Source of the DNA: Psychroserpens burtonensis DSM 12212
Lineage (GTDB): Bacteria; Bacteroidota; Bacteroidia; Flavobacteriales; Flavobacteriaceae
Reading direction: 5' to 3'
Length of the DNA stretch: 64,000 nucleotides
Assembly: GCF_000425305.1 (NCBI RefSeq)
Contig: NZ_AUDE01000026.1
Location: 1-64,000 of the forward strand
The translations under genes and the position numbers were made by a program. Each line of letters begins with the position of its first letter. The first letter of the stretch is position 1. The notes under the pieces were generated by a model, which saw nothing but the letters and a program-made list of their open reading frames with translations, made no database searches and was not told the origin of the DNA. Shown piece after piece: positions 46,875 through 63,354 of the stretch.

Positions 46875-47531
46875 ATGAAAAAATATTACGCAGAAACGAT
46901 TGGAACTTTCGCAATGGTATTTTGTGGTTGTGGAGCAATGACCATTAATGAAATTACTGGAGGAAGTATTACTCATGTGGGAATTGCTATGACTTGGGGA
47001 TTAATTGTAATGAGTATGATTTATGCTTTTGGCGATATTTCTGGAGCACATTTTAATCCTGCTGTGACGTTTGGATTTGCTTATGCAAATAAATTTCCAT
47101 GGAAGGAAGTCCCAAAATATTTTATTGCACAAGCTATTGGTGCTTTTTTAGCTTGCCTTATTCTACTGTTCCTATTTCCGCAGAGTGAAACATTAGGTAG
47201 CAGCTTACCCGCTCAAGGTTTTGAACCCTATAGAGCCTTTGTATTAGAAATCCTGCTTACATTTTTCTTAATGGTTGTGATCATAAACGTCTCAACAGGA
47301 AGCAAAGAAATTGGAACCATGGCTGGCATTGCTATTGGAGCTGTGATTTTATTGGAAGCCATGTTTGCTGGCCCTATGACGAAAGCATCTATGAACCCTA
47401 TTAGATCTCTTGCTCCAGCTCTTGTGTCCGGAAACTTACAGCATTTATGGCTCTATTTAACGGCTCCTTTTATAGGAGCATTTCTAGCAGTTATGAGTTG
47501 TTCCTTTGTTAAAGAGGAAAATTGCTGTTAA
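46875..47531 (+). CDS. Aquaporin / MIP family channel with NPI second motif
   Basis: The 218-residue protein has six membrane segments and the MIP double-half layout. The first half keeps the canonical SGAHFNPAVT (N61-P62-A63). The second half reads ASMNPIRSLAPAL (N174-P175-I176-R177), so Ala is replaced by Ile while the selectivity Arg is kept. This is seen in some bacterial and plant subgroups, and the substrate may be water or small neutral solutes such as glycerol. It ends with a Cys-containing tail. Confidence 0.85.
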   Translation: MKKYYAETIGTFAMVFCGCGAMTINEITGGSITHVGIAMTWGLIVMSMIYAFGDISGAHFNPAVTFGFAYANKFPWKEVPKYFIAQAIGAFLACLILLFLFPQSETLGSSLPAQGFEPYRAFVLEILLTFFLMVVIINVSTGSKEIGTMAGIAIGAVILLEAMFAGPMTKASMNPIRSLAPALVSGNLQHLWLYLTAPFIGAFLAVMSCSFVKEENCC

Positions 47532-47580
47532 AACGCGTGCTATTTAAATGTTACCTAAACTGTAATGTCTTGTTAATTTT

Positions 47581-47623
47581 TGTTTAACTTTTATAGTTAA
47601 TAGTTAAACATTTTGTATCTTTA
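47581..47623 (+). promoter_or_regulatory. Palindromic operator plus -7 box before the TetR gene
   Basis: TGTTTAAC (47581) and GTTAAACA (ending 47610) are perfect inverted arms spaced by 14 bases. After TTAAACATTTTGTA comes TATCTTTA, a near-consensus -7 box. The same architecture, with identical spacings, occurs at 56944-56986. This one lies 19 bases before the TetR start, so it may be the site of autoregulation and of the photolyase-cluster regulator. Confidence 0.65.
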
Positions 47624-47641
47624 CTGCATAATCAACTAGTC

Positions 47642-48298
47642 ATGGCAAAAAAAAAAAACATAACAAAAAATGACATTATTTCATTCTACATGGACTATGT
47701 CTTAGAGCACAATCATCAGCCCAAAACGGTGTACGCTTTTGCAAAAGTAAATAACTTTGAAGAACAAAAATTTTATGATCATTTTGGATCATTTGAAGCT
47801 GTTGAAAAGCATGTATTCACCGCCTTTTATCACAATACAATTACGGTACTTGAAAAAAGCGATGACTATAAATCTTTTGATGCTCGTAACAAGTTACTAA
47901 GTTTTTACTTCACATTCTTTGAAAATCTAACCGCAAACCGCAGTTATGTAAAGTATGCCTTAGAGCATCATAAAAGTGACCTAAAAAGTTTGAGTTTACT
48001 AAAAGATTTAAAACGTGTTTTCACTGATTACATAGCCAGTTTAGAGATTGATCTTATAGAAATTAAACAAGAACAAATTGATAGAATTCAACAACGGGGA
48101 CTCAAAGAGACAGCTTGGTTTCAACTATTATTGACCTTAAAGTTTTGGATAGATGACACCTCTCCAGGATTTGAAAAGACAGATATTTTTATCGAGAAAT
48201 CGGTTAATACGAGTTTTGATGTTTTAAACGTTGCTCCGATAAGAACTTTAATAGACTTTGGGAAATTTATTTTCAAAGAAAAAATACAAATGAACTAA
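47642..48298 (+). CDS. TetR/AcrR family transcriptional regulator
   Basis: The 218-residue protein has a basic start and an N-terminal helix-turn-helix (TKNDIISFYMDYVLEHNH; then PKTVYAFAKVNNFEEQKFYD with HFGSFEAVEK), typical of TetR DNA-binding domains (residues 5-58). The C-terminal helical domain (60-215) should bind a ligand or partner; family similarity there is loose. It is the first gene of the plus-strand run leading to the photolyases, and an autoregulatory palindrome lies directly upstream. Confidence 0.82.
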   Translation: MAKKKNITKNDIISFYMDYVLEHNHQPKTVYAFAKVNNFEEQKFYDHFGSFEAVEKHVFTAFYHNTITVLEKSDDYKSFDARNKLLSFYFTFFENLTANRSYVKYALEHHKSDLKSLSLLKDLKRVFTDYIASLEIDLIEIKQEQIDRIQQRGLKETAWFQLLLTLKFWIDDTSPGFEKTDIFIEKSVNTSFDVLNVAPIRTLIDFGKFIFKEKIQMN

Positions 48299-48308
48299 GC
48301 AGTCCTTA

Positions 48309-49619
48309 ATGAAAACTATAGACAAAATACCTACATCCAAAATTCAACGCGCATCGAAACTGGTTTCAACAGGAGCAAAAGTTGGTGTTAATTATCTCAA
48401 ATATTATGGAGATAAATTAACAAAAACTGAAATTGAAGCTAAGGATCGTTTAAACCAAAATAATGCAGAAGACATTTATGATGGTTTAAAACAGCTCAAA
48501 GGAAGTGCGCTTAAAGTTGCACAAATGCTGAGTATGGAAAAAAGTATTTTGCCACAGGCTTATGTAGAAAAATTTTCATTGGCTCAATTCTCTGTTCCGC
48601 CTTTATCGCCTCCACTGGTTTTAAAGACGTTTAAAAAATACTTTGGCAAATTGCCAAATGAAATATATGATACCTTCAACGCAACTTCTGTAAATGCTGC
48701 AAGTATTGGACAAGTCCATATTGCAGAAAAAAATGGGAAGAAACTTGCTGTGAAAATCCAATATCCAGGAGTTGCGGAGAGTATCGCATCAGATCTTGCA
48801 ATGATAAAGCCTATCGCTGTGAGCATGTTTAATATCAAAGGAAAAGATTCTGATAAGTACTTCAAGGAAGTTGAAGGTAAATTAATTGAGGAAACAAATT
48901 ATATTTTAGAAGTTGAGCAAAGTAAAGAAATCGCTCTCAAGTGTGCTCATATTCCTAATTTATCGTTTCCTAGTTATTATGAAGAGTTATCCTCTGAGCG
49001 CATCATCACTATGGATTATATGGCTGGTGAGCATCTATCAGAATTTACTGCATATAACACAAATCAAGAACACTCAGATAAATTAGGTCAAGCCCTTTGG
49101 GATTTCTACATGTTCCAGATGCATACTTTAAAAAAGGTTCATGCAGACCCACATCCTGGTAATTTCTTAGTATCTAAAGACGCTGGGTTAATTGCATTAG
49201 ACTTTGGTTGTATGAAAATAATTCCTGACGAATTTTATATACCTTATTTTGAATTGGCTGATGTCAATAAAATAAATGATCGTAAATATTTTGTTGAAAC
49301 ACTGTACCAGCTTGAAATATTAAGAGAAGACGATACGCCTAAAGAAATTGCATTTTTTACCGACATGTTCTATGAAATGTTGAGTTTGTTTACACAACCG
49401 TTGCAGGCTGATGTATTCGACTTTTCTGATGGTACTTTCTTCGGAAAAATAACAGAATTAGGTGAGCGCTATTCAAAAAGTACAGAACTTAGAAAAATGA
49501 ATGCAAATAGAGGATCTACGCATTTCATCTATATTAACCGTACCTTCTTTGGGTTATATAACTTAATGTTTGATTTAAAAGCAAAGGACATTAAAATAAA
49601 TAACTATAAAACCTTATAA
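48309..49619 (+). CDS. ABC1/UbiB (AarF) family atypical kinase
   Basis: The 436-residue protein has the UbiB-type kinase fold. The N-terminal extension carries GSALKVAQMLSMEKSILPQA in the place of the KxGQ motif. The ATP-binding strand has KKLAVKIQYPG, the catalytic loop reads VHADPHPGNFL, and the metal loop is ALDFGCMK. Family members support ubiquinone or other quinone/lipid metabolism by ATPase activity. It starts 10 bases after the TetR stop, and its stop overlaps the next start by one base. Confidence 0.9.
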   Translation: MKTIDKIPTSKIQRASKLVSTGAKVGVNYLKYYGDKLTKTEIEAKDRLNQNNAEDIYDGLKQLKGSALKVAQMLSMEKSILPQAYVEKFSLAQFSVPPLSPPLVLKTFKKYFGKLPNEIYDTFNATSVNAASIGQVHIAEKNGKKLAVKIQYPGVAESIASDLAMIKPIAVSMFNIKGKDSDKYFKEVEGKLIEETNYILEVEQSKEIALKCAHIPNLSFPSYYEELSSERIITMDYMAGEHLSEFTAYNTNQEHSDKLGQALWDFYMFQMHTLKKVHADPHPGNFLVSKDAGLIALDFGCMKIIPDEFYIPYFELADVNKINDRKYFVETLYQLEILREDDTPKEIAFFTDMFYEMLSLFTQPLQADVFDFSDGTFFGKITELGERYSKSTELRKMNANRGSTHFIYINRTFFGLYNLMFDLKAKDIKINNYKTL

Positions 49620-50233
49620 TGGCGTATATTACTAATAAAGACATTGACAACCTTGATTATATATACCGAATTAACTTAATTAATAGTTGCTCTGGTTATA
49701 AATCTGCTAATTTATTAGGAACAAAATCTAATGAAGGTATTGAAAATGTTGCTGTATTTAGTTCTGTTACGCATATAGGTTCAAATCCGCCAATGTTAGG
49801 TTTCTTTTGTAGACCAACGACGGTAACACGTCATACATATAATAACATCAAGAACACAGGTTTTTATACGATCAATCATATACATAACGCTATTTTAGAA
49901 GACGCACATCATACATCTGCTAAATATGATTCTGATATTTCTGAATTTGACAAAACTCAACTCATTTCAGAATATAAAAAAGAATTTCATGCACCTTTTG
50001 TAAAAAGTGCTCCAGTTCAATTGGCTATGGAGTTTGTTGAGGAATACCATATCAAAGCAAACGGAACACTTCTAGTTATCGGTAAAATTGTAGGGTTGCA
50101 TGTTAATGACGAGCTACTTGAAGCTGACGGATTTATAAATCTATCAAAAGGAAAAGTCGCAGCTATTAATGGGCTTGACGCTTATGCTGTTTCGCCGTCA
50201 AATACGCGGTTTAACTATCAAAGACCTAAATAG
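49619..50233 (+). CDS. Flavin reductase family protein (FMN-binding split barrel)
   Basis: The 204 residues show the flavoprotein pattern INLINSCSGYKSANLLGTKS, NVAVFSSVTHIGSNPPMLGF, TVTRHTYNNIKNTGFYTINH and, towards the end, INGLDAYAVSPS. Proteins of this kind bind FMN and reduce flavins or serve oxygenases. In this cluster it could supply reduced flavin, a cofactor theme shared with the photolyases. ATG overlaps the ABC1 stop (TAATG). Confidence 0.85.
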   Translation: MAYITNKDIDNLDYIYRINLINSCSGYKSANLLGTKSNEGIENVAVFSSVTHIGSNPPMLGFFCRPTTVTRHTYNNIKNTGFYTINHIHNAILEDAHHTSAKYDSDISEFDKTQLISEYKKEFHAPFVKSAPVQLAMEFVEEYHIKANGTLLVIGKIVGLHVNDELLEADGFINLSKGKVAAINGLDAYAVSPSNTRFNYQRPK

Positions 50234-50316
50234 ATTTTGACAATTTCCATTTTTAAGAACTTAAAAAACTAACATGATGCTTCCCTCTCGGAAACTATCA
50301 AAAACACAATCGATAA

Positions 50317-51741
50317 ATGAAGATTCTCGTAACAGGTGCAACGGGTTATATTGGCAAGCGGTTAATTCCGCTATTATCCAATAGTGAGCATCATGTTGTC
50401 TGTGCTGTTCGTGATAAATTAAGAGCTGACAAAAGTTATATTGAAGATGACACTATAGATGTTATTGAAGCCGATTTTTTAAAACCAGAAACACTACACA
50501 GCATTCCAAAAGATATTGATATTGCATTTTACCTTATTCATTCGATGTCTAATTCTTCAACAGATTTCGAAGCTCTAGAAGAACGTTGTGCTATTAATTT
50601 TAAACAGCAGCTAGAGAAAACTAATGTCAAACAAGTCATATATCTCAGTGGCATTACTAATGATGACAATCTATCCAAACATTTACAATCTCGTAAAAAT
50701 GTGGAAAGCAGATTAGCCTCTGATCATTATGCTTTAACAGTTTTCAAAGCAGGTATTATTGTTGGATCTGGAAGCTCTTCATTTGAAATCATAAGAGATT
50801 TAGTAGAGAAGTTACCATTCATGATTGCGCCGAAATGGCTAGATACAAAAACACAACCTTTAGGTGTTAGAAATGTGCTTTCATTTTTACATAACAGTGT
50901 TGGTCGTAAGGAGGTATACAATCAATCCTACGACGTTTTTGGCCCTGAAGTTCTCACCTATAAAGACATGCTATTGCAATTTGCAGAGGTACGTGGATTA
51001 AAAAGATACATTTTAACGGTTCCTGTAATGACTCCAAAATTATCATCGTATTGGTTGTATTTCGTAACGTCAACATCTTACAAATTAGCATCGTCACTGG
51101 TGGAAAGTATGGGTGTTCAAATCGTAGGAAAACCAAGCCATATTAATCGTTTACTAGATGTAGATCCCATGGACTACAAGACTGCGGTTGCGCTTGCTTT
51201 TGAAAAAATTGAACAGAATAGTATTATCTCAAGTTGGAAAGACTCAATGGTTAGTAGCGGACGTTTAAGAAATCAACTTCACAAATATATTAATGTTCCA
51301 AAATACGGTTGTTTTAAGGATTATAAAGAACGACAAGTCACAGATGCTCCTAAAACAATTGACAAAATTTGGAGTATAGGAGGAACTAATGGTTGGTATT
51401 ATGGAACCATACTTTGGAAAATAAGGGGATATATTGACAAGCTTTTTGGAGGTATAGGATTACGTCGCGGAAGAACAAGCCCTACAGATTTAGATGTTGG
51501 AGATGCACTTGATTTTTGGCGTGTCATCTTTGCTGATAAAACACAACAAAAATTATTATTATATGCCGAAATGCGCCTTCCTGGTGAAGCTTGGTTAGAG
51601 TTTAAAATAGAGGATGGCATACTCAAACAAACCGCCACGTTTAGACCTCGCGGACTTTGGGGACGACTCTATTGGTATAGTGTTTTTCCGTTTCATGGGT
51701 TTATTTTTAATGGTATGATAAACAAGCTCGTAGATGTCTAA
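50317..51741 (+). CDS. SDR-like NAD(P)-binding protein with DUF2867 C-terminal domain
   Basis: The 474-residue protein starts with the Rossmann motif [16 protein letters not shown] (5-20). [20 protein letters not shown] is typical of the atypical SDR group linked to DUF2867, and [15 protein letters not shown] follows. The C-terminal ~150 residues (from [20 protein letters not shown]) form the DUF2867 part, a START-like fold. Such two-domain proteins recur beside photolyase and carotenoid genes in bacteria; the substrate is unknown. Confidence 0.85.
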
Positions 51742-51883
51742 ACATAAAAAGCCACACTTACCAACAAAAATCTGTCAAACTTGTGGCTTGCCATTTAGTT
51801 GGCGCAAAAAATGGGAAAAGAATTGGGAAAACGTAAAATATTGTAGTGAAAAATGCAGGAGAAACAAAACAACAAAGGATTAG
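51734..51883 (+). CDS. DUF2256 domain-containing small zinc-ribbon-like protein, 49 aa
   Basis: ATG at 51734 overlaps the DUF2867 gene end by 8 bases, and the 3' end overlaps the DASH cryptochrome start by 31 bases. The sequence [20 protein letters not shown] and [15 protein letters not shown] has two CxxC pairs spaced for a zinc ribbon, the hallmark of DUF2256. The family is found next to cryptochrome/photolyase genes in many bacteria. The function is unknown. Confidence 0.9.
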
Positions 51884-53163
51884 TATGGTTTAGAAATGAC
51901 TTAAGAGTCCATGATAACGCTGTCTTAGCTGGCGCTATTAAAAACCATAAATCTGTAATAGCATGTTATTGCTTTGATCCGAGACATTATGAAATGTCAA
52001 GATTTGGATTCAAAAAAACAGAAAAATATAGAGCTCAATTTTTAATTGAAACAGTTAAAAATTTAAAAGCCAATCTCAAAATACTACATATTGAGTTGTT
52101 TGTGTTTTCAAAGACACCTGAAGCCACGATCCATGCACTTATCGAGCAACACGACATCAGCTCTATTTATTTACAAACAGAGTGGACTAGTGAAGAACTG
52201 ACCGTTTTAGAAGGCGTAAAATTGACTGTTGCAGACCACATTAAATTTCATGACTATTACGATCAATTTTTATATCATCCAGAAGACATCAATATGTCAT
52301 ATTCTGACATACCCAAAGTATTTACTGTTTTCAGAAAGAAAGTTGAAAAATACAGTAGCATTCGAATTTCTGAAGACAACGATTCTATAGAAAAAATTGA
52401 CAGTTTAGAAAATGACACTCATATTCCAAATCTTGATGATTTAGGTTTTGATTCGTTTGAAGCACATCCCAAGTCCGCCTTCCCGTTTCAAGGCGGAGAA
52501 ACGAGTGCTGCAGACAGATTAAATGACTACTTTTTTGAAACTAAGAAATTAGGAGTCTATAAAAAAACAAGAAATGGTTTAATAGGCACAGACTTTAGCT
52601 CAAAATTTTCTCCTTGGCTGGCAAATGGTAGTCTTTCAGCAAGAACAATTTATTGGAAAATTAGAGAATTTGAGGATGATTATTTCAAAAACGAATCCAC
52701 CTACTGGCTCATTTTTGAACTAATTTGGAGAGATTATTTTAAATATGTGTCCCTAAAACATCAAAATGATATTTTTAAGATTGGCGGTATTTTGAATAAA
52801 GACTATGAGTGGAAATCTACTGACCGTCAAGTTCAAAAATGGATCGATGGAGAAACAAGATCTGCTTTTGTAAATGCTAATATGATTGAGCTCAAAAAAA
52901 CAGGATGGATGAGTAACAGAGGCCGTCAAAATGTAGCTTCATTTTTTGCCAAAGAGTTATTCTTAGATTGGCGTATTGGTGCTGCCTATTTTGAGACTAT
53001 GCTTATCGATTATGATGTACATAGCAATTATGGAAATTGGATGTATGTCGCAGGTGTAGGAAATGACCCAAGAGACAGAAAATTTAATGTGGATTTACAG
53101 GCAGAACGTTATGACAGCAATGGAAAGTTTCAACAACTATGGCTTCAGGAGACCCTGTTCTAA
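51853..53163 (+). CDS. DASH-type cryptochrome/photolyase
   Basis: A flavin-dependent light-driven enzyme for CPD repair in single-stranded or looped DNA, or a photoreceptor. The N-terminal domain opens [21 protein letters not shown]-domain motifs are [49 protein letters not shown] and [23 protein letters not shown]-specific features at the C-terminus are [35 protein letters not shown] and WLQETLF. The 436 residues match short DASH proteins. It overlaps the DUF2256 gene. Confidence 0.93.
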
Positions 53164-53278
53164 AAATGAAATGGAAGTTGAAGTCGAAAAAACGAAAACA
53201 TCCAACGAGTAGCAATAGAATTAATTAAAAAGCAAAGCTAGAAGCTCATATAAAAACGCCTATAGCTATTTAAAAAAA

Positions 53279-54811
53279 ATGAAAATACTCAGACTTATAC
53301 TTGGCGACCAACTCAATATCAAGCATTCGTGGTTTAATAAACCTAACGACGACGTTATCTATTGTCTTTTTGAAATGCGTCAAGAAACAGATTATGTCAA
53401 ACACCACATTCAAAAAGTCATTGGTTTTTTTGCATCAATGCGTCAATTCGCAGAAGAGTTAAAAACACAAGGCCACACGGTTGATTATTTTAAAATAAAC
53501 GACAAAGAAAATACTCAAAGCCTAGTGGCTAATGTAACTACGCTTATAAAATCGCATAACGTAGAGCGTTTTGAATATATGTCTCCCGATGAATATCGCC
53601 TAGACAAACAACTTTCTGATTTTTGTGACAATTTAGATAAAGAGACCCTTGTGGTTGCTTCAGAACATTTTTACACCAAACGAGATGATCTAGCAACCTT
53701 CTTTAAGGGTAAAAAGCAATATCTGATGGAGAATTTCTACAGAGATATGCGTAAAAAACACGATATCTTAATGGTAGCCGGTCAACCAGAAGGGGGAAAA
53801 TGGAATTACGATAAGAGTAATAGGAATAAATGGAAAGGTGATGTTCCTATTCCGAATTACTTGTTGTTTAAAAATGATATTTCCGAAGTGAAAAAAGATA
53901 TAGAAACTGCAGGAATCACTACAATTGGTAGGTTTGATACGTCAACATTCTCCTACCCTATTAATAGAGTTCAAACTTTAGAGCAACTTAAATATTTTTG
54001 TAAAGAATTGCTAGTTCATTTTGGAGATTATCAAGATGCAATGCATACCGATGAGGCGTATTTATTTCATTCGCGATTGTCGTTTGCTATGAATATAAAG
54101 CTCATTTCTCCTAAGGATGTGGTGACTACGGTAATGAATTACTATCGTATCCATGATGATGACATTAATATATCTCAGGTTGAAGGCTTTGTTAGGCAAA
54201 TAATTGGGTGGAGAGAATATATGAGAGGCATGTATTGGGCGTTTATGCCAGAATACAAAACGAAAAACACACTAGACAATCATAATACACTTCCTGATTT
54301 TTTCTGGACGGGTGATACGAAGATGAATTGCCTAAGTAAAACCATTAATAATTCATTAGATAATGGCTATGCTCATCACATCCAGCGCTTAATGATTACT
54401 GGTAATTATGCTTTACTTACTCAAACGCATCCAGACGAGGTTGATGCCTGGTATTTGGGCATTTATGTAGATGCCATTGAATGGGTTCAACTTACTAATA
54501 CTAGAGGTATGAGCCAATTTGCAGATGGTGGCAAAATAGCTACAAAACCTTATGTATCGTCGGGATCCTATATCAATAAAATGAGTAATTATTGTAGTGA
54601 TTGTCATTATAATAAAAGCAAAAAGACTGAAGATGACGCGTGTCCATTTAATAGTTTATACTGGAATTTTCTGGATGATAAACGCCCACAATTGGGTAAA
54701 AATTTCAGAATGGGAATGATGTATAGTTTATTAGATAAAATGGATAAACAGGTACTTCAAGACATTAAAAAGAAAGCACAACATATTATAGAACATCAAG
54801 ATGATTACTAA
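53279..54811 (+). CDS. Iron-sulfur bacterial cryptochrome/(6-4) photolyase (FeS-BCP)
   Basis: The 510 residues follow the FeS-BCP family: RLILGDQLNIKHSWF at the start, MENFYRDMRKKHDILM, GGKWNYDKSNRNKW, then FVRQIIGWREYMRGMYW and FADGGKIATKPYVSSGSYI. Four Cys for the [4Fe-4S] cluster are C351, C439, C442 and C455. The spacing 88-3-13 is, as I recall it, that of Agrobacterium PhrB. These enzymes repair (6-4) photoproducts and bind FAD plus a ribolumazine antenna. Its presence next to GTP cyclohydrolase suggests pterin-linked cofactor supply. Confidence 0.93.
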   Translation: MKILRLILGDQLNIKHSWFNKPNDDVIYCLFEMRQETDYVKHHIQKVIGFFASMRQFAEELKTQGHTVDYFKINDKENTQSLVANVTTLIKSHNVERFEYMSPDEYRLDKQLSDFCDNLDKETLVVASEHFYTKRDDLATFFKGKKQYLMENFYRDMRKKHDILMVAGQPEGGKWNYDKSNRNKWKGDVPIPNYLLFKNDISEVKKDIETAGITTIGRFDTSTFSYPINRVQTLEQLKYFCKELLVHFGDYQDAMHTDEAYLFHSRLSFAMNIKLISPKDVVTTVMNYYRIHDDDINISQVEGFVRQIIGWREYMRGMYWAFMPEYKTKNTLDNHNTLPDFFWTGDTKMNCLSKTINNSLDNGYAHHIQRLMITGNYALLTQTHPDEVDAWYLGIYVDAIEWVQLTNTRGMSQFADGGKIATKPYVSSGSYINKMSNYCSDCHYNKSKKTEDDACPFNSLYWNFLDDKRPQLGKNFRMGMMYSLLDKMDKQVLQDIKKKAQHIIEHQDDY

Positions 54812-54912
54812 TACATCTTTAGGACATAGTGTTTGGTTAATGTATAATAGTTGAAATTAAATTTCAATTATTAATTATTAATTATTAATAGAATTAGAAA
54901 TTAAACTTACAC

Positions 54913-55377
54913 ATGAAAGAGACTCTTTACAAACTTGATAGGAGAACGATTAGAATTATGAGAAGCGTTAGCAGACCTGCCATTCGTTTATCATTTGGTA
55001 TTATATTTATTTGGTTCGGGATATTAAAACCACTAGGTCTTTCATCTGCTGAGGGTTTACTAAAAGCAACAGTAGTGTGGCTGCCCTTCGGTTCTGCAGA
55101 AAACTGGTTAATAGTAATTGGATTATGGGAAGTGGTCATTGGCGTTTTCTTTTTCTTTAGAAAAACAACACGATTAGCGATTATACTTTTACTATTACAA
55201 ATGGTAGGTACGTTCATGCCTCTTGTATTTCTTCCTGAGGTTACTTTTCAATCAAATAATATTTTTGTTCCTACTTTGGAAGGACAGTATATTATTAAAA
55301 ATTTAATGATTATATCAGCTGCTTTAGTTCTTGGTGGAGAAATTAATAAACCGAAAGATTTAAAAAAAGATTTATAA
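54913..55377 (+). CDS. DoxX/DUF417-like membrane protein
   Basis: The 154-residue protein has four membrane segments (about 22-40, 62-82, 87-110 and 127-147). The N-terminal SRPAIRLSFGIIFIWFGILK and the second-segment GLWEVVIGVFFFFRKTTRLA match the DoxX/DUF417 pattern. Members are small redox-linked membrane proteins with no clear enzyme function. It sits between two photolyase genes and may be part of the same transcript. Confidence 0.7.
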   Translation: MKETLYKLDRRTIRIMRSVSRPAIRLSFGIIFIWFGILKPLGLSSAEGLLKATVVWLPFGSAENWLIVIGLWEVVIGVFFFFRKTTRLAIILLLLQMVGTFMPLVFLPEVTFQSNNIFVPTLEGQYIIKNLMIISAALVLGGEINKPKDLKKDL

Positions 55378-55396
55378 TATATTTTAGAATAATAGA

Positions 55397-56866
55397 ATGA
55401 GTAAAAATAAGCCTCAATTACATATCGTTTGGTTAAAACGCGATCTTCGTTTAGAGGATAATGAGGCTATAGTGAATGCATTAGCTACGGGAGAACGAAC
55501 GCTTCTACTCTATGCCTTTGAGACAATATTACTAGAAGATAATCATTACAGTGAGCGTCATTGGAACTTCATTAGAGAATCAATTAAAGACTTAAATAAG
55601 CAACTTAAACCTTTAAATTCTAAAATTCTTGCTGTTGAGGCAGATATTATTTCAATTATTAACCAATTGATGTCAAAGTATATGATTCGTGATATCTATT
55701 CCCACCAAGAAACAGGAATACTTGTAACTTATAACAGAGACAAATCATTTAAGCGTTATTGTAAAAATAATTTAATCATATGGCATGAAAACATTCATAA
55801 TGGTGTACAACGTGGTTTAAAAAATCGCGCGCTTTGGGCACAACATTGTAATGCCTATTTTGAAATTGATCCATTGGTGTTTTCTCCTTCGGAAAATCAA
55901 TTACTCAACAATCAAGAAATTGAAGAATTAGAAGTCTTACTTCCCGTAGCGTCTCTCGACACACCTAAAGATGCTATTTTTCAAAAAGGTGGCCGTAGTA
56001 TCGGTATAAAGTATTTGGATTCATTCCTTACCAAACGGTATGTGAATTATATGTATCATATTTCTAAGCCTGAATTAGCACGGAAAGGATGCAGTAGAAT
56101 CTCACCATATATTGCTTGGGGAAACTTATCAATAAGAGAAGTCTATAGGAAAGCTTACGTATTGAAAAAGACGTCGTCCAGTAAAAAACCTTTAGAGGCC
56201 TTTATGTCTCGTTTAAGATGGCAAGCACACTTTATCCAAAAGTTTGAAATGGAACATACTATGGAAACTGAAAGTGTGAATAAAGGGTTCCATAAATTAA
56301 AGAAAGATGTTTCTGGGCACTATCAAATCGCTTGGGAAACCGGACAGACAGGATTTCCACTTGTTGATGCTTGTATGCGTTGTTTAAATGAAACTGGCTA
56401 TTTAAATTTTAGAATGCGCGCTTTAGTTGTGTCCTTTCTAACACATAATCTCTGGCAACCTTGGCAAGCAGCCTCAAAGCATTTATCAAAAATGTTTTTA
56501 GATTTTGAGCCAGGAATTCATTTTCCACAATTGCAGATGCAAGCTGGAGAAACGGGCACCAATATGCTTAGAATTTATAATCCGATTAAAAACAGTTTGG
56601 AGCACGATCCTGACGCTACTTTTATAAAAAAATGGGTTCCCGAGCTGAAAGATTTAGACCTACCTTTTATTCATGAACCGTATTTAATGACCGAAATGGA
56701 ACAACAATTCATTAATTTTCACCTTGGTAAAGATTACCCATATCCTATCGTTGATATGGAAGTAACAAGAAAAAAAGCTAGTGACACTCTCTGGAACCTT
56801 AGGAAAAACAAAAAAGCAAGAGAAGAAAGTCAACGAATACTAAAAAAGCACACTCTTAAAGGCTAA
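55397..56866 (+). CDS. Cryptochrome/deoxyribodipyrimidine photolyase family protein
   Basis: Third photolyase paralogue, 489 residues. The N-terminal antenna domain opens HIVWLKRDLRLEDNEAI. FAD-domain motifs are GCSRISPYIAWGNLSIREVY, SRLRWQAHFIQKFEMEH, WETGQTGFPLVDACMRCLNE and LNFRMRALVVSFLTHNLW. GETGTNMLRIYNPIKNSLEHDP follows. The C-terminal ~60 residues (LGKDYPYPIVDMEVTRKKAS) form a tail typical of a separate bacterial cryptochrome-like group rather than class I CPD photolyases. The repair specificity is unknown. Confidence 0.88.
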   Translation: MSKNKPQLHIVWLKRDLRLEDNEAIVNALATGERTLLLYAFETILLEDNHYSERHWNFIRESIKDLNKQLKPLNSKILAVEADIISIINQLMSKYMIRDIYSHQETGILVTYNRDKSFKRYCKNNLIIWHENIHNGVQRGLKNRALWAQHCNAYFEIDPLVFSPSENQLLNNQEIEELEVLLPVASLDTPKDAIFQKGGRSIGIKYLDSFLTKRYVNYMYHISKPELARKGCSRISPYIAWGNLSIREVYRKAYVLKKTSSSKKPLEAFMSRLRWQAHFIQKFEMEHTMETESVNKGFHKLKKDVSGHYQIAWETGQTGFPLVDACMRCLNETGYLNFRMRALVVSFLTHNLWQPWQAASKHLSKMFLDFEPGIHFPQLQMQAGETGTNMLRIYNPIKNSLEHDPDATFIKKWVPELKDLDLPFIHEPYLMTEMEQQFINFHLGKDYPYPIVDMEVTRKKASDTLWNLRKNKKAREESQRILKKHTLKG

Positions 56867-56943: not shown

Positions 56944-56986
56944 TGTTTAAACATAGTTTCAAAACATTAAACATTTTGTAAATTTG
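56944..56986 (+). promoter_or_regulatory. Palindromic operator plus -7 box inside the photolyase cluster
   Basis: TGTTTAA (56944) and TTAAACA (ending 56973) span 30 bases, as at 47581-47610. TTAAACATTTTGTA is followed by the consensus -7 box TAAATTTG (56979-56986), again at the same offset. It lies 22 bases before the TTG start at 57008, so it starts a second transcription unit. Confidence 0.65.
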
Positions 56987-57007
56987 AGTAATAAATAAAA
57001 GAGACGA

Positions 57008-57433
57008 TTGATACTAGACACAACACATAATAATAAAGAACACAAAAACATTATAACAGATTTAATAGGCCGCCCCTACACGTTTATGGAATCTATTAAA
57101 ATGAGAGGAGTCGGCTCAAAGCGAATGATTATTGAAAATGTGAGCCCTAACTTACAACAGCATTTAAATACGATTGCAGATATTAATTATGCTAACATCG
57201 AAATGAGACCGAGTGGTATTTTAATTTATATCAATAAAGGTCTAAAAAATTACACTTGGGTGATTCCTTTTTATCAATTGGTGATTTATAAAACCAACGG
57301 AATTAGTATTCATGCTCAGGGCAAATTTGTTCATTTTAAAAACAATACCATGTTTAAAGAAAATAAGGTATATATGGATAAGTTATTTGATGCTAAGGTC
57401 AAATTTGATGAACGTTATAGTTTTCAATATTAA
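57008..57433 (+). CDS. Conserved hypothetical protein in photolyase cluster, 141 aa
   Basis: The TTG at 57008 lies 21 bases beyond a good promoter box. A later ATG at 57087 would drop the first 26 residues and is less likely. The protein is soluble and mixed alpha/beta: LIGRPYTFMESIKMRGVGSK, MIIENVSPNLQQHLNTIADI, NIEMRPSGILIYINKGLKNY and WVIPFYQLVIYKTNGISI. The family is not recognised. The TIGR03643 gene follows 4 bases later, so it is co-transcribed with it. Confidence 0.6.
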   Translation: MILDTTHNNKEHKNIITDLIGRPYTFMESIKMRGVGSKRMIIENVSPNLQQHLNTIADINYANIEMRPSGILIYINKGLKNYTWVIPFYQLVIYKTNGISIHAQGKFVHFKNNTMFKENKVYMDKLFDAKVKFDERYSFQY

Positions 57434-57437
57434 CTGT

Positions 57438-57710
57438 ATGGAATTAGACACAATAGCGACAGATAGAATTATAGAAATGGCATGGGAAGATAGAACTACG
57501 TTTGAAGCTATTCAGTTTCAATTTGGTTTGAAAGAGCAAGATGTAATTCAATTAATGCGTCGAGAAATGAAACCTAAAAGTTTTAGGATGTGGCGTAAAC
57601 GTGTACAAGGTAGAAAGACAAAGCACGAAAAACTAAGAGTATTTCAAGAGGGACGTTTTAAATGTTCTAGACAAAAACAAATTACGCATAACTCAATATC
57701 TAAACGATAA
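57438..57710 (+). CDS. TIGR03643 (DUF2805) family protein
   Basis: The start at 57438 (MELDTIATDRIIEMAWEDRT) removes a long upstream overlap with the previous gene. The 90-residue protein carries the family core DRTTFEAIQFQFGLKEQDVI, LMRREMKPKSFRMWRKRVQG, and RKTKHEKLRVF. The helices resemble a small DNA-binding domain, and family members sit beside photolyase/cryptochrome genes. The function is unknown. Confidence 0.85.
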   Translation: MELDTIATDRIIEMAWEDRTTFEAIQFQFGLKEQDVIQLMRREMKPKSFRMWRKRVQGRKTKHEKLRVFQEGRFKCSRQKQITHNSISKR

Positions 57711-57766
57711 CGTGCTTTGACATTGGAGATGAGTTCCTTTGGACAGCAAGTTAAAAAGACAAAAAA

Positions 57767-58462
57767 ATGAATACAGACACATTAAAGATTAAACAAAATG
57801 GTCATTCTTTAAATGATTTTAATATCACTGATATTGGTGACGATCATCTGTTTACAGGACTAGAAACTCCTATGAAAGCAGACGCTTTTAAAATTAGTGA
57901 CGAAGAGAAAAAACAACGTATCGCTATATTGTTTGAAGAAATAATGGATGTGATGGGATTGGATCTTACAGATGACTCTTTAAAAGGGACTCCTAAGCGT
58001 GTCGCTAAAATGTATATCGATGAAATATTTTCAGGATTAAATCCTGCTAATAAGCCTAAAGTCGCCCTATTTGACAATAAATATCAATACAACCAGATGG
58101 TTGTAGAAAAAAACATTACATTCTACTCCAATTGCGAACATCATTTTGTGCCAATTATTGGAAAAGCACATGTATCCTATATATCATCAGGAAAAGTAAT
58201 TGGATTATCAAAACTGAATAGAATAGTGCAGTACTACGCTAAGCGTCCTCAAGTACAAGAGCGATTGACTAATCAAATAGCAGAAGATTTAAAGGCTATT
58301 TTAGAAACAGAAGATGTAGCAGTTATTATAGATGCTAAACATTTATGTGTATCTTCAAGAGGGATTAAAGATGATACATCGGCAACGGTCACAACCTATT
58401 ATGGTGGTCAATTTAATACACCTGCAAAAATTGCAGAATTACACAATTATATAAATAATTAA
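57767..58462 (+). CDS. folE: GTP cyclohydrolase I
   Basis: The enzyme makes dihydroneopterin triphosphate, the root of folates and pterins. In the 231 residues, zinc ligands C123 and C194 with H125/H126 lie in SNCEHHFVPIIGKAHVSYIS and KHLCVSSRGI. KRPQVQERLT (159-168) contributes to the active site. The N-terminal ~40 residues form an acidic, variable extension. The location inside a photolyase cluster fits a role in supplying pterin or folate antenna chromophores (for instance MTHF). Confidence 0.95.
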   Translation: MNTDTLKIKQNGHSLNDFNITDIGDDHLFTGLETPMKADAFKISDEEKKQRIAILFEEIMDVMGLDLTDDSLKGTPKRVAKMYIDEIFSGLNPANKPKVALFDNKYQYNQMVVEKNITFYSNCEHHFVPIIGKAHVSYISSGKVIGLSKLNRIVQYYAKRPQVQERLTNQIAEDLKAILETEDVAVIIDAKHLCVSSRGIKDDTSATVTTYYGGQFNTPAKIAELHNYINN

Positions 58463-58465
58463 GAT

Positions 58466-58690
58466 ATGGATTTAATAAACAAAGCCTTAGAATTTGAGAA
58501 GCGCAAAATGAAGTCGCTCTCCACCAGTGATCGCGTTAAGATTTCTCGCGAAGCTAAAGACCTAGTGTTAGATTTAAACCAAATTTATAAGGAAAAGAAA
58601 GATGAGAAAATCATGGATATAATGAAACGCATAACTGCCATAAAACGCAAGGTTGAAAAGCGCTTAAAAGGAGCACCTTTAACTGCATAA
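58466..58690 (+). CDS. Small basic helical protein downstream of folE, 74 aa
   Basis: Starts 3 bases after the folE stop. It is highly charged and helical throughout (LINKALEFEKRKMKSLSTSD; ITAIKRKVEKRLKGAPLTA) with no membrane segment. No family is recognised. The tight spacing implies co-transcription with folE. It resembles small Lys-rich accessory proteins of unknown function. Confidence 0.6.
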   Translation: MDLINKALEFEKRKMKSLSTSDRVKISREAKDLVLDLNQIYKEKKDEKIMDIMKRITAIKRKVEKRLKGAPLTA

Positions 58691-58711
58691 ATCATATTTA
58701 TCCTTAATTAA

Positions 58712-58759
58712 AATTAAGCGCAGTAGATAACAAATAATGTGTATCTGTTGCGCTTAATT
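58712..58759. terminator. Inverted repeat, possible terminator
   Basis: AATTAAGCGC and GCGCTTAATT pair, and AGATA/TATCT extends the stem across one mismatch region. No clear T-run follows, so it may be an mRNA-stabilising hairpin rather than a strict terminator. Confidence 0.5.
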
Positions 58760-58778
58760 ATTTAAAATATATTATTAA

Positions 58779-59462
58779 ATGAAAACATATATAGTTGTAG
58801 GTGGTAGTAAAGGGATAGGGAATGCTATCGTACAAAGCTTACTAGAAAACAATAAAGTCGTAAATTTAAGTAGATCTAAGCCAGATTATACGCATGCCAA
58901 TTTAACGCATCATGATTGCGATATTTTAAGTGATGAACTGCCTGAAATTGAACATGCAGACGGTTTGGTATATTGCCCTGGCAGCATTAATTTAAAGCCT
59001 ATTAAGCGATTGAGCTTAGAAGATTTTAGAGCAGATTACGAAATTAATGTCATAGGCGCTGTGAAAGCCATTCAACAATACCTTGCTATTTTAAAAAATG
59101 GTAATGATCCATCTATTGTATTATTTAGTACAGTTGCTGCAAAACTAGGAATGCCTTTTCACGCAAGTATTGCTGCTGCAAAATCTGGTGTTGAAGGCTT
59201 AGTAAAATCCTTAGGTGCTGAGTTAGCAACTACACTTAGAATAAATGCAATTGCGCCTACAGTCACTAATACAGAATTGGCTTCTAAATTACTTAGAAAT
59301 GACAAGATGATTGAAAATATCACAGAACGTCACCCAATGAAAAAAATATTGGAACCTCAAGACGTTGCTGGTATGGCTGAATTTCTATTGTCTGAAAAAG
59401 CAGGATCAATTTCAGGACAAGTCTTTGAAATGGACTATGGAATTGTTAGTTTTAAGATATAA
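58779..59462 (+). CDS. SDR family oxidoreductase without the catalytic Tyr
   Basis: Classical SDR of 227 residues: GGSKGIG nucleotide motif (8-14), YCPGSI in the NNAG position, NVIGA (90-94), and SIVLFSTVAAKLGMPF. The active-site region reads ASIAAAKSGVEGL, with Lys135 kept, but Ile131 stands where the catalytic Tyr of the YxxxK motif belongs. RINAIAPTVTNTEL follows normally. Activity by the usual proton transfer is doubtful, so a binding or modified role is possible. Its place after folE could link it to pterin metabolism. Confidence 0.85.
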   Translation: MKTYIVVGGSKGIGNAIVQSLLENNKVVNLSRSKPDYTHANLTHHDCDILSDELPEIEHADGLVYCPGSINLKPIKRLSLEDFRADYEINVIGAVKAIQQYLAILKNGNDPSIVLFSTVAAKLGMPFHASIAAAKSGVEGLVKSLGAELATTLRINAIAPTVTNTELASKLLRNDKMIENITERHPMKKILEPQDVAGMAEFLLSEKAGSISGQVFEMDYGIVSFKI

Positions 59463-59590
59463 ATTAGAATTTTACAATAAGAAGATTCTATTTATAGAAA
59501 CTTTTTATTTCATTATATTATGGCATTACATCACATTAAGAATCACTTTTAATGTTCACAAATTAGTGAATACTGAACACGCAATATAAA

Positions 59591-60130
59591 ATGAATCCAT
59601 TTAAAATTTTTATGGCTACACTCTTTTCAAAATCAAGTAATTCTGAATCACCTGACCCTTCATCTATTTATGATATCGAAATTAATGGGCTCACAAGACA
59701 GCCTTTAACGCTTTCAGATTATAAAGGAAAATATGTTTTATTTGTGAATGTTGCTTCAAAATGCGGGTTTACGCCTCAATACAAGGAGCTACAAACCCTC
59801 TATGAGACACATCAAGATAAACTAGTGGTCATAGGAGTGCCTTGCAATCAATTTGGAAAACAAGAGCCAGGAAACTCAAAGGATATTGAATCGTTTTGCG
59901 AAATCAATTATGGTGTTAGTTTTCCCATAACAGAAAAAGTAGAAGTGAAAGGCTCCAAACAGCACCCTTTATATCAATGGCTCACTCAAAAACAAAAGAA
60001 TGGTGCTAAAGATTCTAATGTAAAATGGAATTTTCAAAAATACTTAGTTGGTCCAAAAGGAGACCTTATTGATTTTTACTTTTCAATGACATCACCAACA
60101 AGTTCAAAAATTACTAAACATATTAAATAG
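59591..60130 (+). CDS. Glutathione peroxidase family protein
   Basis: The 179-residue peroxidase has NVASKCGFTPQYKELQTLY with peroxidatic C58, GVPCNQFGKQEPG (a second Cys at C85 suits thioredoxin-dependent recycling), and KWNFQKYLVGPKG with the catalytic Trp/Asn. The start at 59591 gives a short N-terminal hydrophobic segment, FKIFMATLFSKS, which is weak for a signal. It detoxifies hydroperoxides, fitting photo-oxidative stress. Confidence 0.93.
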   Translation: MNPFKIFMATLFSKSSNSESPDPSSIYDIEINGLTRQPLTLSDYKGKYVLFVNVASKCGFTPQYKELQTLYETHQDKLVVIGVPCNQFGKQEPGNSKDIESFCEINYGVSFPITEKVEVKGSKQHPLYQWLTQKQKNGAKDSNVKWNFQKYLVGPKGDLIDFYFSMTSPTSSKITKHIK

Positions 60131-60136
60131 ATACCT

Positions 60137-60307
60137 ATGTTCAATTTATTCAAAAAGACAAGTGAAGTTGATAAGCTTCAAAAAAAATACGAAAAACTAA
60201 TGAAAGAATGGCATACGCTATCCACTACAAATAGAGGTGAAAGTGATAAAAAATATGCTGAAGCTGAAAAGATTCAACAACAAATTGCACAACTTCAAAA
60301 AAAATAA
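60137..60307 (+). CDS. Lacal_2735-family small protein, 56 aa
   Basis: ATG at 60137 follows the GPx stop by 6 bases. MFNLFKKTSEVDKLQKKYEK followed by LMKEWHTLSTTNRGESDKKY is the pattern of the Lacal_2735 family, a short helical protein known mainly from Flavobacteriia. The function is unknown. The next gene starts 2 bases after its stop, so the GPx, this gene and TspO are an operon. Confidence 0.8.
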   Translation: MFNLFKKTSEVDKLQKKYEKLMKEWHTLSTTNRGESDKKYAEAEKIQQQIAQLQKK

Positions 60308-60309
60308 CC

Positions 60310-60771
60310 TTGAGATTTTTTAGAGTACTCATAGCCTTTATTGTATTAAATTTTGGAGCGCTTGGATTAGGCGCTCTTTTTATGGGAAAAGGTGCACAGT
60401 CTACATGGTATTTAGAACTAGAAAAAGCACCTTGGACACCAGACGGTTGGATTTTTGGTGCGGCTTGGACACTCATAATGATTTGCTTTTCGGTGTACAT
60501 GACTTTCTTGTATCTCAAACGACCAACTAATACGGTCTTTATACTCTTCATGATACAGTTTATTTTAAATATAAGTTGGAACTTATTGTTTTTCAATCAG
60601 AAACTAATAGATTTCGCATTAGTTAATATTCTATTATTAACAGTAATGGTTGCAGGGTTTTTCATTACTTACCTTAAAGACTTAAAGGGTAAATCAATAC
60701 TCATACTGCCTTATTTTATTTGGTTGTGTATTGCCACGTCTCTTAACCTTTATATCGCATTATATAATTAA
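60310..60771 (+). CDS. TspO/MBR family protein
   Basis: Five membrane helices in 153 residues with the TspO signature KAPWTPDGWIFGAAWTLIMI (~36-55), FLYLKRPTN, and LNISWNLLFFNQKLIDFALV in helix 3-4. The start is a TTG at 60310, 2 bases after the previous stop. Bacterial TspO proteins bind porphyrins and act in oxidative stress or light-dependent regulation, which fits the photolyase setting. Confidence 0.9.
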   Translation: MRFFRVLIAFIVLNFGALGLGALFMGKGAQSTWYLELEKAPWTPDGWIFGAAWTLIMICFSVYMTFLYLKRPTNTVFILFMIQFILNISWNLLFFNQKLIDFALVNILLLTVMVAGFFITYLKDLKGKSILILPYFIWLCIATSLNLYIALYN

Positions 60772-60794
60772 TATACACCGTACTTGCTAAAAGT

Positions 60795-60822
60795 GTTACC
60801 AAATAAGTAAATAACTGGTAAC
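60795..60822. promoter_or_regulatory. Inverted repeat GTTACCA/TGGTAAC
   Basis: Seven-base arms GTTACCA and TGGTAAC are spaced by 14 bases, the same spacing as the arms of the TetR-gene operator but with a different sequence. It lies 40 bases upstream of the SRPBCC start. Confidence 0.4.
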
Positions 60823-60862
60823 GCAGAGCATATAACCGTTGAAACATACTACATATATACAC

Positions 60863-61330
60863 ATGAAAATTTATACACTACACAAAAAACAAAAATTACC
60901 GATAACTTTAGATGAAGCTTGGTCCTTTTTGTGTAATCCTGCTAATCTATCTAAGTTGACACCTTCAAAAATGAATATGAAAATCATTACTGGAGCAGAC
61001 AGACCAATGTATGCAGGTCAAGTATTGCAGTATAGTGTAACACCTTTAGCAGGAATTAAGACCAAATGGGTTAGCGAAATAACGCAATTTGAAGACCATA
61101 AATACTTTGTTGACGTACAACTGTATGGACCTTATGCTTTTTGGCATCACAAACATTTTATAACTGAAATTGATGGAGGCGTTGAGATGGAAGATATTAT
61201 TGATTATAAGGTTCCCTTCGGAATACTAGGCCAACTCGTTCAGCCTTTAATTGTGAAACCCAAATTGGAAGAAGTTTTCAATTATCGTAGAGAGCAACTA
61301 GAGAAGCTATTCGGAACATATTACACTTAA
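60863..61330 (+). CDS. SRPBCC (START-like) family protein
   Basis: The start at 60863 (MKIYTLHKKQKLPITLDEAW) is chosen over one eight codons upstream because it begins at the first predicted strand. The 155 residues follow the SRPBCC pattern for the group that accompanies photolyases: LCNPANLSKLTPSKMNMKII, GAYDR-like DRPMYAGQVLQYSV, YGPYAFWHHKHFITEID and VEMEDIIDYKVPFGILG. It has a ligand-binding cavity fold; the ligand is unknown. Confidence 0.85.
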   Translation: MKIYTLHKKQKLPITLDEAWSFLCNPANLSKLTPSKMNMKIITGADRPMYAGQVLQYSVTPLAGIKTKWVSEITQFEDHKYFVDVQLYGPYAFWHHKHFITEIDGGVEMEDIIDYKVPFGILGQLVQPLIVKPKLEEVFNYRREQLEKLFGTYYT

Positions 61331-61406
61331 TTATCGTATTTCTAATACATAAAAATACTATTTATAACTTATGATTTCTATTTTTGTAGAAGGTCTCATT
61401 AGGCCT

Positions 61407-61434
61407 TTTTAATACGATGAAAAGCGTATTAAAA
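61407..61434. promoter_or_regulatory. Perfect inverted repeat before phr
   Basis: TTTTAATACG, an 8-base loop and CGTATTAAAA are perfectly complementary, 24 bases upstream of the photolyase start. It could be an operator or an mRNA leader hairpin. Confidence 0.45.
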
Positions 61435-61458
61435 TTTCCGAAATAAAAATTTTATATA

Positions 61459-62763
61459 ATGAAACAACCACTATCTATTTTTTGGTTTAGACGTGATTTA
61501 CGTTTAGATGACAATCACGGGTTTTTCAAAGCTCTGAAAAGCGACTATCCAGTCTTACCTATTTTTATTTTTGATTCTGATATTTTAGATAAATTACCAA
61601 AAGATGATGCAAGACTAACCTTTATCTACGATACGCTTCAGCAAATGCGATCTACTCTAGAAAAAAAGCATGATAGCAGTATAGCTATTTTTCATGGGAA
61701 ACCTATTGATATTTATAAGCAATTAGTTACTAATTATAAAATACAAGAAGTCTATACCAATCATGATTATGAGCCTTATGCAACAGAACGTGATATCGAA
61801 GTTGAACAATTCTTAAAAGATGAACATATAGCATTCAAAACTTTTAAAGATCAGGTCATCTTTGAAAAGGACGACGTTGTCAAAAAAGATGGATTACCCT
61901 ACAAAGTGTACACCCCTTACATGAACGTTTGGAAAGCACAATTCAGGCTACAAAAACTAGAGATATACGATACCGAATCCCATTTTGGAAATCTAATTGA
62001 TGATGATACGTTACCCAATTTAAGTTTATCAGACATTGGCTTTAAAAAATCAAATCAGCACATTGTAGATTATACGGTCACCCCGACTCTTATCCAAAAC
62101 TATGAAGATACCAGAAACTTTCCAGCAAAAGATTCTACTTCTAAGGTAGGACCACATTTAAGATTCGGGACTGTTAGTGTTCGTAAAATGATACAAAAAG
62201 CAATTGCCGAAGAGAATGAAATATTTTGGCAAGAGCTTATTTGGAGAGAATTCTTTATGCAAATCTTATGGCATTTTCCACATACTTCAAAAGATGCCTT
62301 CAAATCAAAATATGATAGAATAGAATGGCGCAATAATGAAGAAGAATTTAAGCTTTGGTGTGAAGGCCAAACTGGTTACCCATTAGTAGACGCAGGTATG
62401 CGACAACTTAACGAAACCGGGTTTATGCACAATCGTGTACGCATGTTAGTTGGTAGCTTTTTATGTAAGCACTTACTCATTGACTGGCGTTGGGGAGAAG
62501 CTTATTTTGCTGAAAAATTACATGATTATGACATGTCTAGTAATGTAGGTAACTGGCAATGGGTTGCAGGTTCTGGTGTGGATGCATCACCTTACTTTAG
62601 AATATTTAATCCTACATCACAAATACTTAAGTTTGATAAAAACTTAACATATATACAAAAATGGGTTCCAGAGTTTCAAGAACTGACCTATGCAAAACCT
62701 ATGGTAGATCATAAAATGGCGCGCGAACGCTGCTTAAAAACTTATAAGGAAGCTGTTAGCTAA
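61459..62763 (+). CDS. Cryptochrome/deoxyribodipyrimidine photolyase (class I type)
   Basis: Fourth paralogue, 434 residues. The antenna domain starts SIFWFRRDLRLDDNHGFF. The FAD domain carries STSKVGPHLRFGTVSVRKMI, FWQELIWREFFMQILWHFP, CEGQTGYPLVDAGMRQLNE and GFMHNRVRMLVGSFLCKHL. The substrate/FAD core LHDYDMSSNVGNWQWVAGSG and ASPYFRIFNPTSQ are as in CPD photolyases. The Trp chain positions look plausible. CPD repair in double-stranded DNA is the expected role. It has its own upstream gap with an inverted repeat. Confidence 0.93.
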   Translation: MKQPLSIFWFRRDLRLDDNHGFFKALKSDYPVLPIFIFDSDILDKLPKDDARLTFIYDTLQQMRSTLEKKHDSSIAIFHGKPIDIYKQLVTNYKIQEVYTNHDYEPYATERDIEVEQFLKDEHIAFKTFKDQVIFEKDDVVKKDGLPYKVYTPYMNVWKAQFRLQKLEIYDTESHFGNLIDDDTLPNLSLSDIGFKKSNQHIVDYTVTPTLIQNYEDTRNFPAKDSTSKVGPHLRFGTVSVRKMIQKAIAEENEIFWQELIWREFFMQILWHFPHTSKDAFKSKYDRIEWRNNEEEFKLWCEGQTGYPLVDAGMRQLNETGFMHNRVRMLVGSFLCKHLLIDWRWGEAYFAEKLHDYDMSSNVGNWQWVAGSGVDASPYFRIFNPTSQILKFDKNLTYIQKWVPEFQELTYAKPMVDHKMARERCLKTYKEAVS

Positions 62764-63324: not shown

Positions 63325-63354
63325 TATGTATGTTAGTATCCTTCCGAAGAAAAA

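Follow-up and report, generated by a model that had tools for sequence, protein, structure and literature searches.

A conserved palindrome links a photolyase gene cluster of Psychroserpens burtonensis to a predicted light regulon with a candidate CarH-like MerR regulator

The window analysed here, a stretch of 64,000 nucleotides (positions 1 to 64,000 of contig NZ_AUDE01000026.1), belongs to the 3.98-Mb draft genome of Psychroserpens burtonensis DSM 12212 (termed G000), and harbors on its plus strand, at 46875-62763, a cluster of four photolyase/cryptochrome-family genes together with accessory genes. These genes group into two tight runs (47642-56866 and 57008-62763), each of which is presumably transcribed as a single transcript, and the promoters of both runs possess a 30-bp palindrome of the form TGTTTAA-N16-TTAAACA. 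What the sequences show is the palindrome, how it is conserved, which genes lie downstream, and that it is associated and co-varies with a gene of the MerR family. Taken as sequence evidence, these features indicate that the two runs are probably operon-like parts of one light regulon under a CarH-like MerR protein, each lying behind a promoter-overlapping palindrome.

In the proposed model, MerR loaded with adenosylcobalamin would occupy the palindromes in the dark and block RNA polymerase. Upon illumination, the cobalt-carbon bond would be broken and the promoters released, and the photolyases, the pterin and flavin enzymes, crtI and proteorhodopsin would then be produced jointly. Binding by MerR, repression, cobalamin and the response to light are the predicted components of this model; a dark repressor released by light is proposed because of the likeness to CarH together with the CarH literature, as far as the available parts of those papers go. 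On balance, and with less assurance, we also favor the broader proposal that in Flavobacteriaceae one receptor of the CarH kind acts through the palindrome to switch phototrophy (proteorhodopsin plus the carotenoid pathway leading to retinal) jointly with photorepair, and that residue 26 of the receptor sets the operator base.

In both promoter intervals the exact palindrome is followed by TTTTGTAnnTTT(G/A), which resembles the flavobacterial -7 box (consensus from the available text of PMC3587595). G000 contains six exact palindromes, compared to none for a reversed-pattern control. Two samples of loci were compared: 20 loci selected as holders of the best homologues of X57, the 57008 protein that opens run 2, and the best 80 loci from a search with the TIGR03643 protein alone among named Bacteroidota records. 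A perfect palindrome precedes the gene of the TetR-fold regulator that opens run 1 in 18 of 21 rows (the window plus the 20 loci), and the X57 gene in 20 of 25 rows; at both places the arms are conserved and the spacers have diverged. Within 150 bp upstream of the gene, perfect sites were found for TetR in 24/39 and for X57 in 17/34 of the TIGR03643 loci, with none for shuffled patterns, and every other cluster gene had 0 to 2 (the photolyase rows include paralogue cross-hits). When the palindrome was searched together with the -7 box, 46 genomes gave 87 directional matches, with a few palindromes scored once per strand, versus one for the reversed pattern. Twenty loci outside the cluster were inspected, with targets named from the next open reading frame (ORF): in seven the site lies before a TetR orthologue, in others before genes for a short-chain dehydrogenase (SDR), cryptochrome, SRPBCC protein and flavin reductase, and several have no clear target. 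These placements come from genomes in which the cluster is scattered.

Only exact matches count within the window, as the two-mismatch pattern is no rarer than chance there (three matches versus a chance mean of 2.05). Across G000, one-mismatch sites numbered 11 versus six in the control, and only those at crtI, a fasciclin gene and a UbiA gene were retained. A sigma-70-type promoter scan (86 versus a shuffled mean of 73) and a terminator scan (7 versus 8) were uninformative. Several further sites are recorded as separate observations. A catalase-peroxidase gene has an exact operator ~260 bp upstream (L004, G000:C10:55298-55327), and one-mismatch sites accompany the G000 fasciclin gene (assigned by Pfam; L313:1501) and precede a UbiA-family prenyltransferase gene (L311:842-871). 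In two Kordia records, fasciclin-domain genes, identified by reading, also sit behind the operator (L138:14447, L164:14376).

Outside the cluster, one further exact G000 site is located between a rhodopsin gene (PF01036, above cut-off) and a blh gene (TIGR03753, above cut-off); from reading of the sequence, the rhodopsin appears to be a proteorhodopsin. Rhodopsin promoters were measured for 93 genes among 99 genomes with a rhodopsin match, leaving out L273, whose stretch was too short, and five more. Among the first 34, which are the closest relatives of the G000 gene plus nine added from another search, 21 have a perfect palindrome within 150 bp and 31 have one with at most one mismatch; together with the 59 measured later, 57 of 93 do so with at most one mismatch. 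In addition, a one-mismatch palindrome separates the MerR gene from crtI in G000 (CrtI: NF058655, above cut-off), and the corresponding stretch behind the MerR gene, on the crtI side, holds a perfect site in 17 of 30 genomes and one with at most one mismatch in 20. By eye, the operator sits upstream of the -7 box at the cluster promoters and over it at rhodopsin and crtI, a varied placement that would fit a repressor better than an activator. The initial annotation had proposed a dedicated light/UV programme, which gains support from one operator type heading both runs and other light genes elsewhere. The particular roles that it suggested, antenna pterin from folE, reduced flavin from the flavin reductase, and help with assembly or DNA access from the DUF2256 and TIGR03643 proteins, are conjecture.

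The candidate regulator is a MerR protein of 299 residues encoded beside crtI on another contig (G000:C13:14230-15126; L319:577-1473). A census of 397 genomes found MerR in 320, TetR in 261 and both in 248, where a regulator was scored absent if no match was found at E 1e-20 (MerR) or E 1e-25 (TetR). Sites were searched in 27 of the 72 MerR-only genomes, 10 of the 64 with neither and all 13 TetR-only genomes. These comparisons rest on sequence throughout, some of the genomes are incomplete, and genomes that are related do not count as independent samples. An exact palindrome occurs at least once in 26 of the 27 MerR-only genomes and in one of the 10 with neither regulator. Moreover, the site behind the MerR gene, with at most one mismatch, persists in 15 of 23 genomes lacking TetR, similar to 6 of 11 further TetR-bearing genomes. 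Since site presence sorts by regulator class and the site persists in the TetR-minus genomes, the operator follows MerR.

Co-variation between the recognition helix and the operator points to the same protein. A diverged MerR occurs in 27 genomes, 21 of which carry lysine instead of isoleucine at recognition-helix position 26 (MerR numbering follows L319; Ile26 was read directly in 30 canonical genomes), and the Lys26 MerR goes with a variant operator, TGTCTAA-N16-TTAGACA. Upstream of the MerR gene itself, 13 of the 21 lysine genomes have the variant with no more than one mismatch, and three of five diverged genomes with Ile26 have the original form there. Eight lysine genomes were read before the TetR gene: four hold the exact variant (G038, G261, G262, G345), three a near-variant (G040 with one extra base, G066 and G230), and G014 none. 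Genome-wide, the exact variant occurs in 14/21 lysine genomes versus 1/33 others, the latter comprising six diverged genomes without lysine and 27 canonical ones, nine of which are among the 30 read and the remainder classed by match score. Three points limit this argument: 7 of the 21 lysine genomes lack an exact variant site, a reversed control for the variant matched in 3 of 54 genomes, and the lysine genomes form one clade, which makes I26K a single event on the tree.

The MerR protein has an N-terminal helix-turn-helix (PF13411, E 4e-18) and a B12-binding helix bundle (PF02607, E 1e-7). Its best NCBIfam match is CarH (NF052513, E 5e-20), and its closest solved relatives are CarH structures (PDB 3whp and 5c8d, E about 6e-13). 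Residues Trp143, Glu153 and His154 of the bundle, as well as His193, are kept in 57/57 homologues. His193 aligns with His177 of CarH, which ligates the cobalt from below according to the available part of PMC10442372, and retention of this cobalt-ligand histidine is the reason why a B12-type light repressor is proposed. The protein missed the CarH cut-off (71.8 versus 400 bits for NF052513) and the PF02310 threshold, and is therefore labeled CarH-like rather than CarH. At the position of the upper-ligand His132 of CarH, the alignment has glutamine in 30/30 canonical homologues, a replacement that may alter the light response; the accessible text of PMC10442372 describes a CarH H132A mutant that mostly remains tetrameric in light, and mentions an earlier report of dissociation. 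These features weigh against a CarH-type receptor, as does the description of proteorhodopsin expression in Dokdonia PRO95 as constitutive (PMC3587595, in the part available). Our confidence is reduced by the missed CarH cut-off and by this single paper.

The replaced His132 and the missed cut-offs would favor a MerR that binds the palindrome as a repressor of the CarA or class II LitR type, without cobalamin light sensing, and is relieved by an antirepressor, a cryptochrome, a LOV protein or a redox signal. Precedents for such relief are a LOV partner for class II LitR (PMC9758184) and CarS for CarA (PMC8156234), both as given in the available portions of these papers, and the cluster holds a cryptochrome-like gene (55397) of uncertain class. 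The invariant lower-ligand histidine and bundle residues argue against loss of cobalamin sensing, and we consider this alternative unlikely compared to a CarH-like light repressor.

The initial hypothesis was that the TetR of the cluster binds the palindrome. It would then repress itself and the regulon until released by a lipid-like ligand (acyl-CoA, isoprenoid or quinone), as suggested by its FadR/COQ9-like fold and its ABC1 neighbor. In Foldseek, the structure model of TetR (predicted local distance difference test, pLDDT, 85.6) matched FasR, FadR and COQ9, in no case below E 0.001, and 15 of 29 TetR members carry a weak COQ9 Pfam signal. In most loci the operator stands directly before TetR, also where the cluster is scattered. 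In addition, TetR is the better predictor of a rhodopsin site with at most one mismatch (51/65 with versus 6/28 without, p 4e-7), compared to MerR (54/77 versus 3/16, p 3e-4). By class, such a site is present in 49/62 genomes with both regulators, 2/3 with TetR only, 5/15 with MerR only and 1/13 with neither. Most of the rhodopsin genomes lacking TetR are small or incomplete; the bias at rhodopsin promoters is not fully explained and tells against MerR as the operator binder.

The expectation that the operator occurs wherever TetR does, and nowhere without it, nevertheless fails in the comparison of genomes. Only 6 of the 13 TetR-only genomes have an exact palindrome, and none of the five with a completeness of 95% or more (G059, G180, G228, G383 and G297, from four genera), in contrast to the near-universal presence in MerR-only genomes. 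The six site-positive ones, 73 to 93% complete, count on the side of TetR. TetR promoters were read in six TetR-only genomes: G059 and G297 have no site, with TetR and ABC1 still adjacent, G158 has none under three mismatches, and the incomplete G365, G371 and G271 have a perfect site before TetR. Furthermore, genomes without TetR retain the site next to the MerR gene, and the operator variant tracks the MerR helix, whereas the TetR helix-turn-helix has no column separating the operator types (29 versus 8 rows). TetR as the operator binder was dropped on the single-regulator genomes and this tracking, and now seems distinctly improbable. The initial annotation had listed TetR among the accessory genes and proposed no regulator; the gene is indeed in the cluster, and the evidence makes it a target of regulation and points to the CarH-like MerR on the other contig as the regulator. 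TetR itself may act at a second tier of regulation or sense lipids. Another candidate, MliR of Bizionia, was set aside because the available description in PMC9478572 has it lacking an effector domain.

Finally, clustering by shared inheritance without common control would suit the variable gene content between the SDR-DUF2867 gene (D2867) and X57, but is very hard to reconcile with the same palindrome at both runs and at unlinked light genes, conserved in its arms and not in its spacer.

The genes of the cluster are listed in Table 1. ORFs, Pfam and NCBIfam matches and structural matches confirm the earlier claim of four photolyase/cryptochrome-family genes with accessory genes on one strand, as well as most of the proposed accessory families; the SRPBCC assignment at 60863 relies on a sub-threshold Pfam match.

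Table 1. Genes and operators of the photolyase cluster in the window
Feature	Position	Strand	Family match or remark
MIP/aquaporin-like channel	46875..47531	+	PF00230; recurrent neighbor, upstream of operator 1 and not behind it
Operator 1	47581..47610		before TetR; exact palindrome TGTTTAACTTTTATAGTTAATAGTTAAACA, then -7-box-like TTTTGTATCTTTA
TetR-fold regulator (TetR_C_23)	47642..48298	+	PF17931; opens run 1 behind operator 1
ABC1/UbiB-family kinase-like protein	48309..49619	+	PF03109
Flavin reductase-like protein	49619..50233	+	PF01613
SDR with DUF2867 domain (D2867)	50317..51741	+	PF13460, PF11066
DUF2256 small protein	51734..51883 (Pfam call to 51880)	+	PF10013; overlaps DASH start
Cryptochrome DASH	51853..53163	+	TIGR02765; nearest solved structure 1np7
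FeS bacterial (6-4) photolyase/cryptochrome type (PhrB, CryB, CryPro)	53279..54811	+	PF04244; 7ykn, 4dja
DoxX-like membrane protein (weak)	54913..55377	+	Pfam matches sub-threshold
Cryptochrome/photolyase-family protein, class uncertain	55397..56866	+	PF00875, PF03441
Operator 2	56944..56973		before X57; exact palindrome TGTTTAAACATAGTTTCAAAACATTAAACA, then TTTTGTAAATTTG
X57, predicted PH-like fold	57008..57433	+	no family match; opens run 2
TIGR03643/DUF2805 protein	57438..57710	+	family match
GTP cyclohydrolase I (FolE)	57767..58462	+	family match
s74, conserved 74-residue protein without family	58466..58690	+	none at E 0.001
Short-chain dehydrogenase (SDR)	58779..59462	+	family match
Glutathione peroxidase family (GPx)	59591..60130	+	PF00255
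Lacal_2735 family small protein	60137..60307	+	NF033487
TspO/MBR	60310..60771	+	PF03073
SRPBCC-like protein (weak)	60863..61330	+	Polyketide_cyc E 0.038, sub-threshold
Class I-like photolyase	61459..62763	+	PF00875, PF03441; 4u63, 1owl, 1dnp

The DASH protein passes TIGR02765 with 494 bits (cut-off 317). The nearest structure of the 53279 protein is the FeS-BCP 7ykn (E 1e-161), with four aligned cysteines that we take to be the FeS ligands. The 55397 protein has no NCBIfam model above its cut-off, and its nearest structure is distant (6ptz, E 2e-38). The 61459 protein is nearest to the DNA photolyases 4u63 and 1owl (E about 1e-84), and scores 360 bits against TIGR03556, whose cut-off is 884.6. 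X57 found no match at E 0.001 in Pfam, NCBIfam or PHROG; its structure model (pLDDT 92.3) gave PH-domain matches that are all weak, the best at E 0.04. A PHROG search with the two family-less proteins gave no match; s74 is present in 19 of the 20 X57-selected loci. The MIP channel accompanies 8/20 X57-selected and 12/80 TIGR03643 loci. Past the last photolyase gene, the ~590 bases at 62764-63354 contain no plus-strand ORF of at least 50 residues.

The gene order of the cluster largely recurs in other Flavobacteriaceae. Among the 20 X57-selected loci, the SDR, SRPBCC and 61459-type photolyase genes are present in all, TetR, ABC1, D2867 and TIGR03643 in 19 each, folE in 15 and DUF2256 in 11. In six of these loci (L043, L050, L051, L052, L055 and L056), the interval from D2867 to X57 lacks a photolyase gene, although the last photolyase and the majority of the accessory genes are retained. 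Of the best 80 TIGR03643 loci, 39 contain both TetR and ABC1, one has TetR alone and one ABC1 alone (39/41 holding either). The initial annotation had suggested checking whether its small uncharacterized families co-occur with photolyases. Within Bacteroidota this holds for TIGR03643, with a photolyase-family gene in 49 of these 80 loci (37/55 when the locus is at least 20 kb), and DUF2256 (39/80) and X57 (35/80) share those loci; the other 31 have no photolyase at the tblastn threshold, and some of the loci stop at contig ends. Sixteen control loci from the same family, centered on remote relatives of X57 (~30-40% identical; L061-L076), held no photolyase. A homologue of the SDR-DUF2867 gene lies in the same locus in 14 of these 16, which suggests an older X57-DUF2867 pair. 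In G056 and G126, a remote X57 is found ~2 kb from a rhodopsin gene.

The closest known systems include those of CarH and CarA from Thermus and Myxococcus, which are light-controlled repressors of carotenoid genes (PMC8156234 and PMC9304148, as far as their available text extends). They share with the flavobacterial MerR the helix-turn-helix, the B12-binding_2 bundle, the cobalt-ligand motif, the adjacency of the gene to a crt gene, a half-site of the TnnACA form and an operator over the promoter. The differences are that CarH/CarA sites are tandem 11-bp direct repeats instead of a 30-bp palindrome, which is a point against the CarH-like model, and that the flavobacterial protein has glutamine for His132, scores below the CarH cut-off, and has a predicted regulon that extends to rhodopsin and a large cluster of photolyase genes. 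In Pseudomonas, LitR is already known to control photolyase, folE and cryB (PMC9758184, available portion). There, class II LitR (PplR/PmlR) jointly controls these genes with an SDR gene and genes of no known function. Its operator, TGTACA-N12-TGTACA, and its LOV partner set it apart from the flavobacterial system, and the operator difference again counts against the CarH-like model; the gene lists in the accessible text name the accessory genes ufaM, folM and folX, and no rhodopsin. The blue-light response of Vibrio cholerae through MerR/ChrR likewise induces photolyase/cryptochrome genes, but belongs to another phylum and uses a sigma-E/ChrR motif, TGATC-N18-CGTAT (PMC5241685, in the part available). 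Our searches of open-access literature found neither a description of the present operator nor one of proteorhodopsin under the control of a CarH/LitR protein.

A parallel within Flavobacteriia is a photolyase gene cluster enriched in proteorhodopsin-bearing genomes (PMC5932025), which, from its description in the available text rather than from gene lists, is probably the cluster analysed here; that text mentions no shared operator or regulator. If the CarH-like MerR regulon holds, it would provide a shared cause for this enrichment, and its promoters would place DUF2256, TIGR03643, X57, s74 and Lacal_2735 in the light programme. With a defined operator and a named candidate for the regulator, direct testing becomes possible, in a lineage where photolyase clusters and proteorhodopsin had already been found together.

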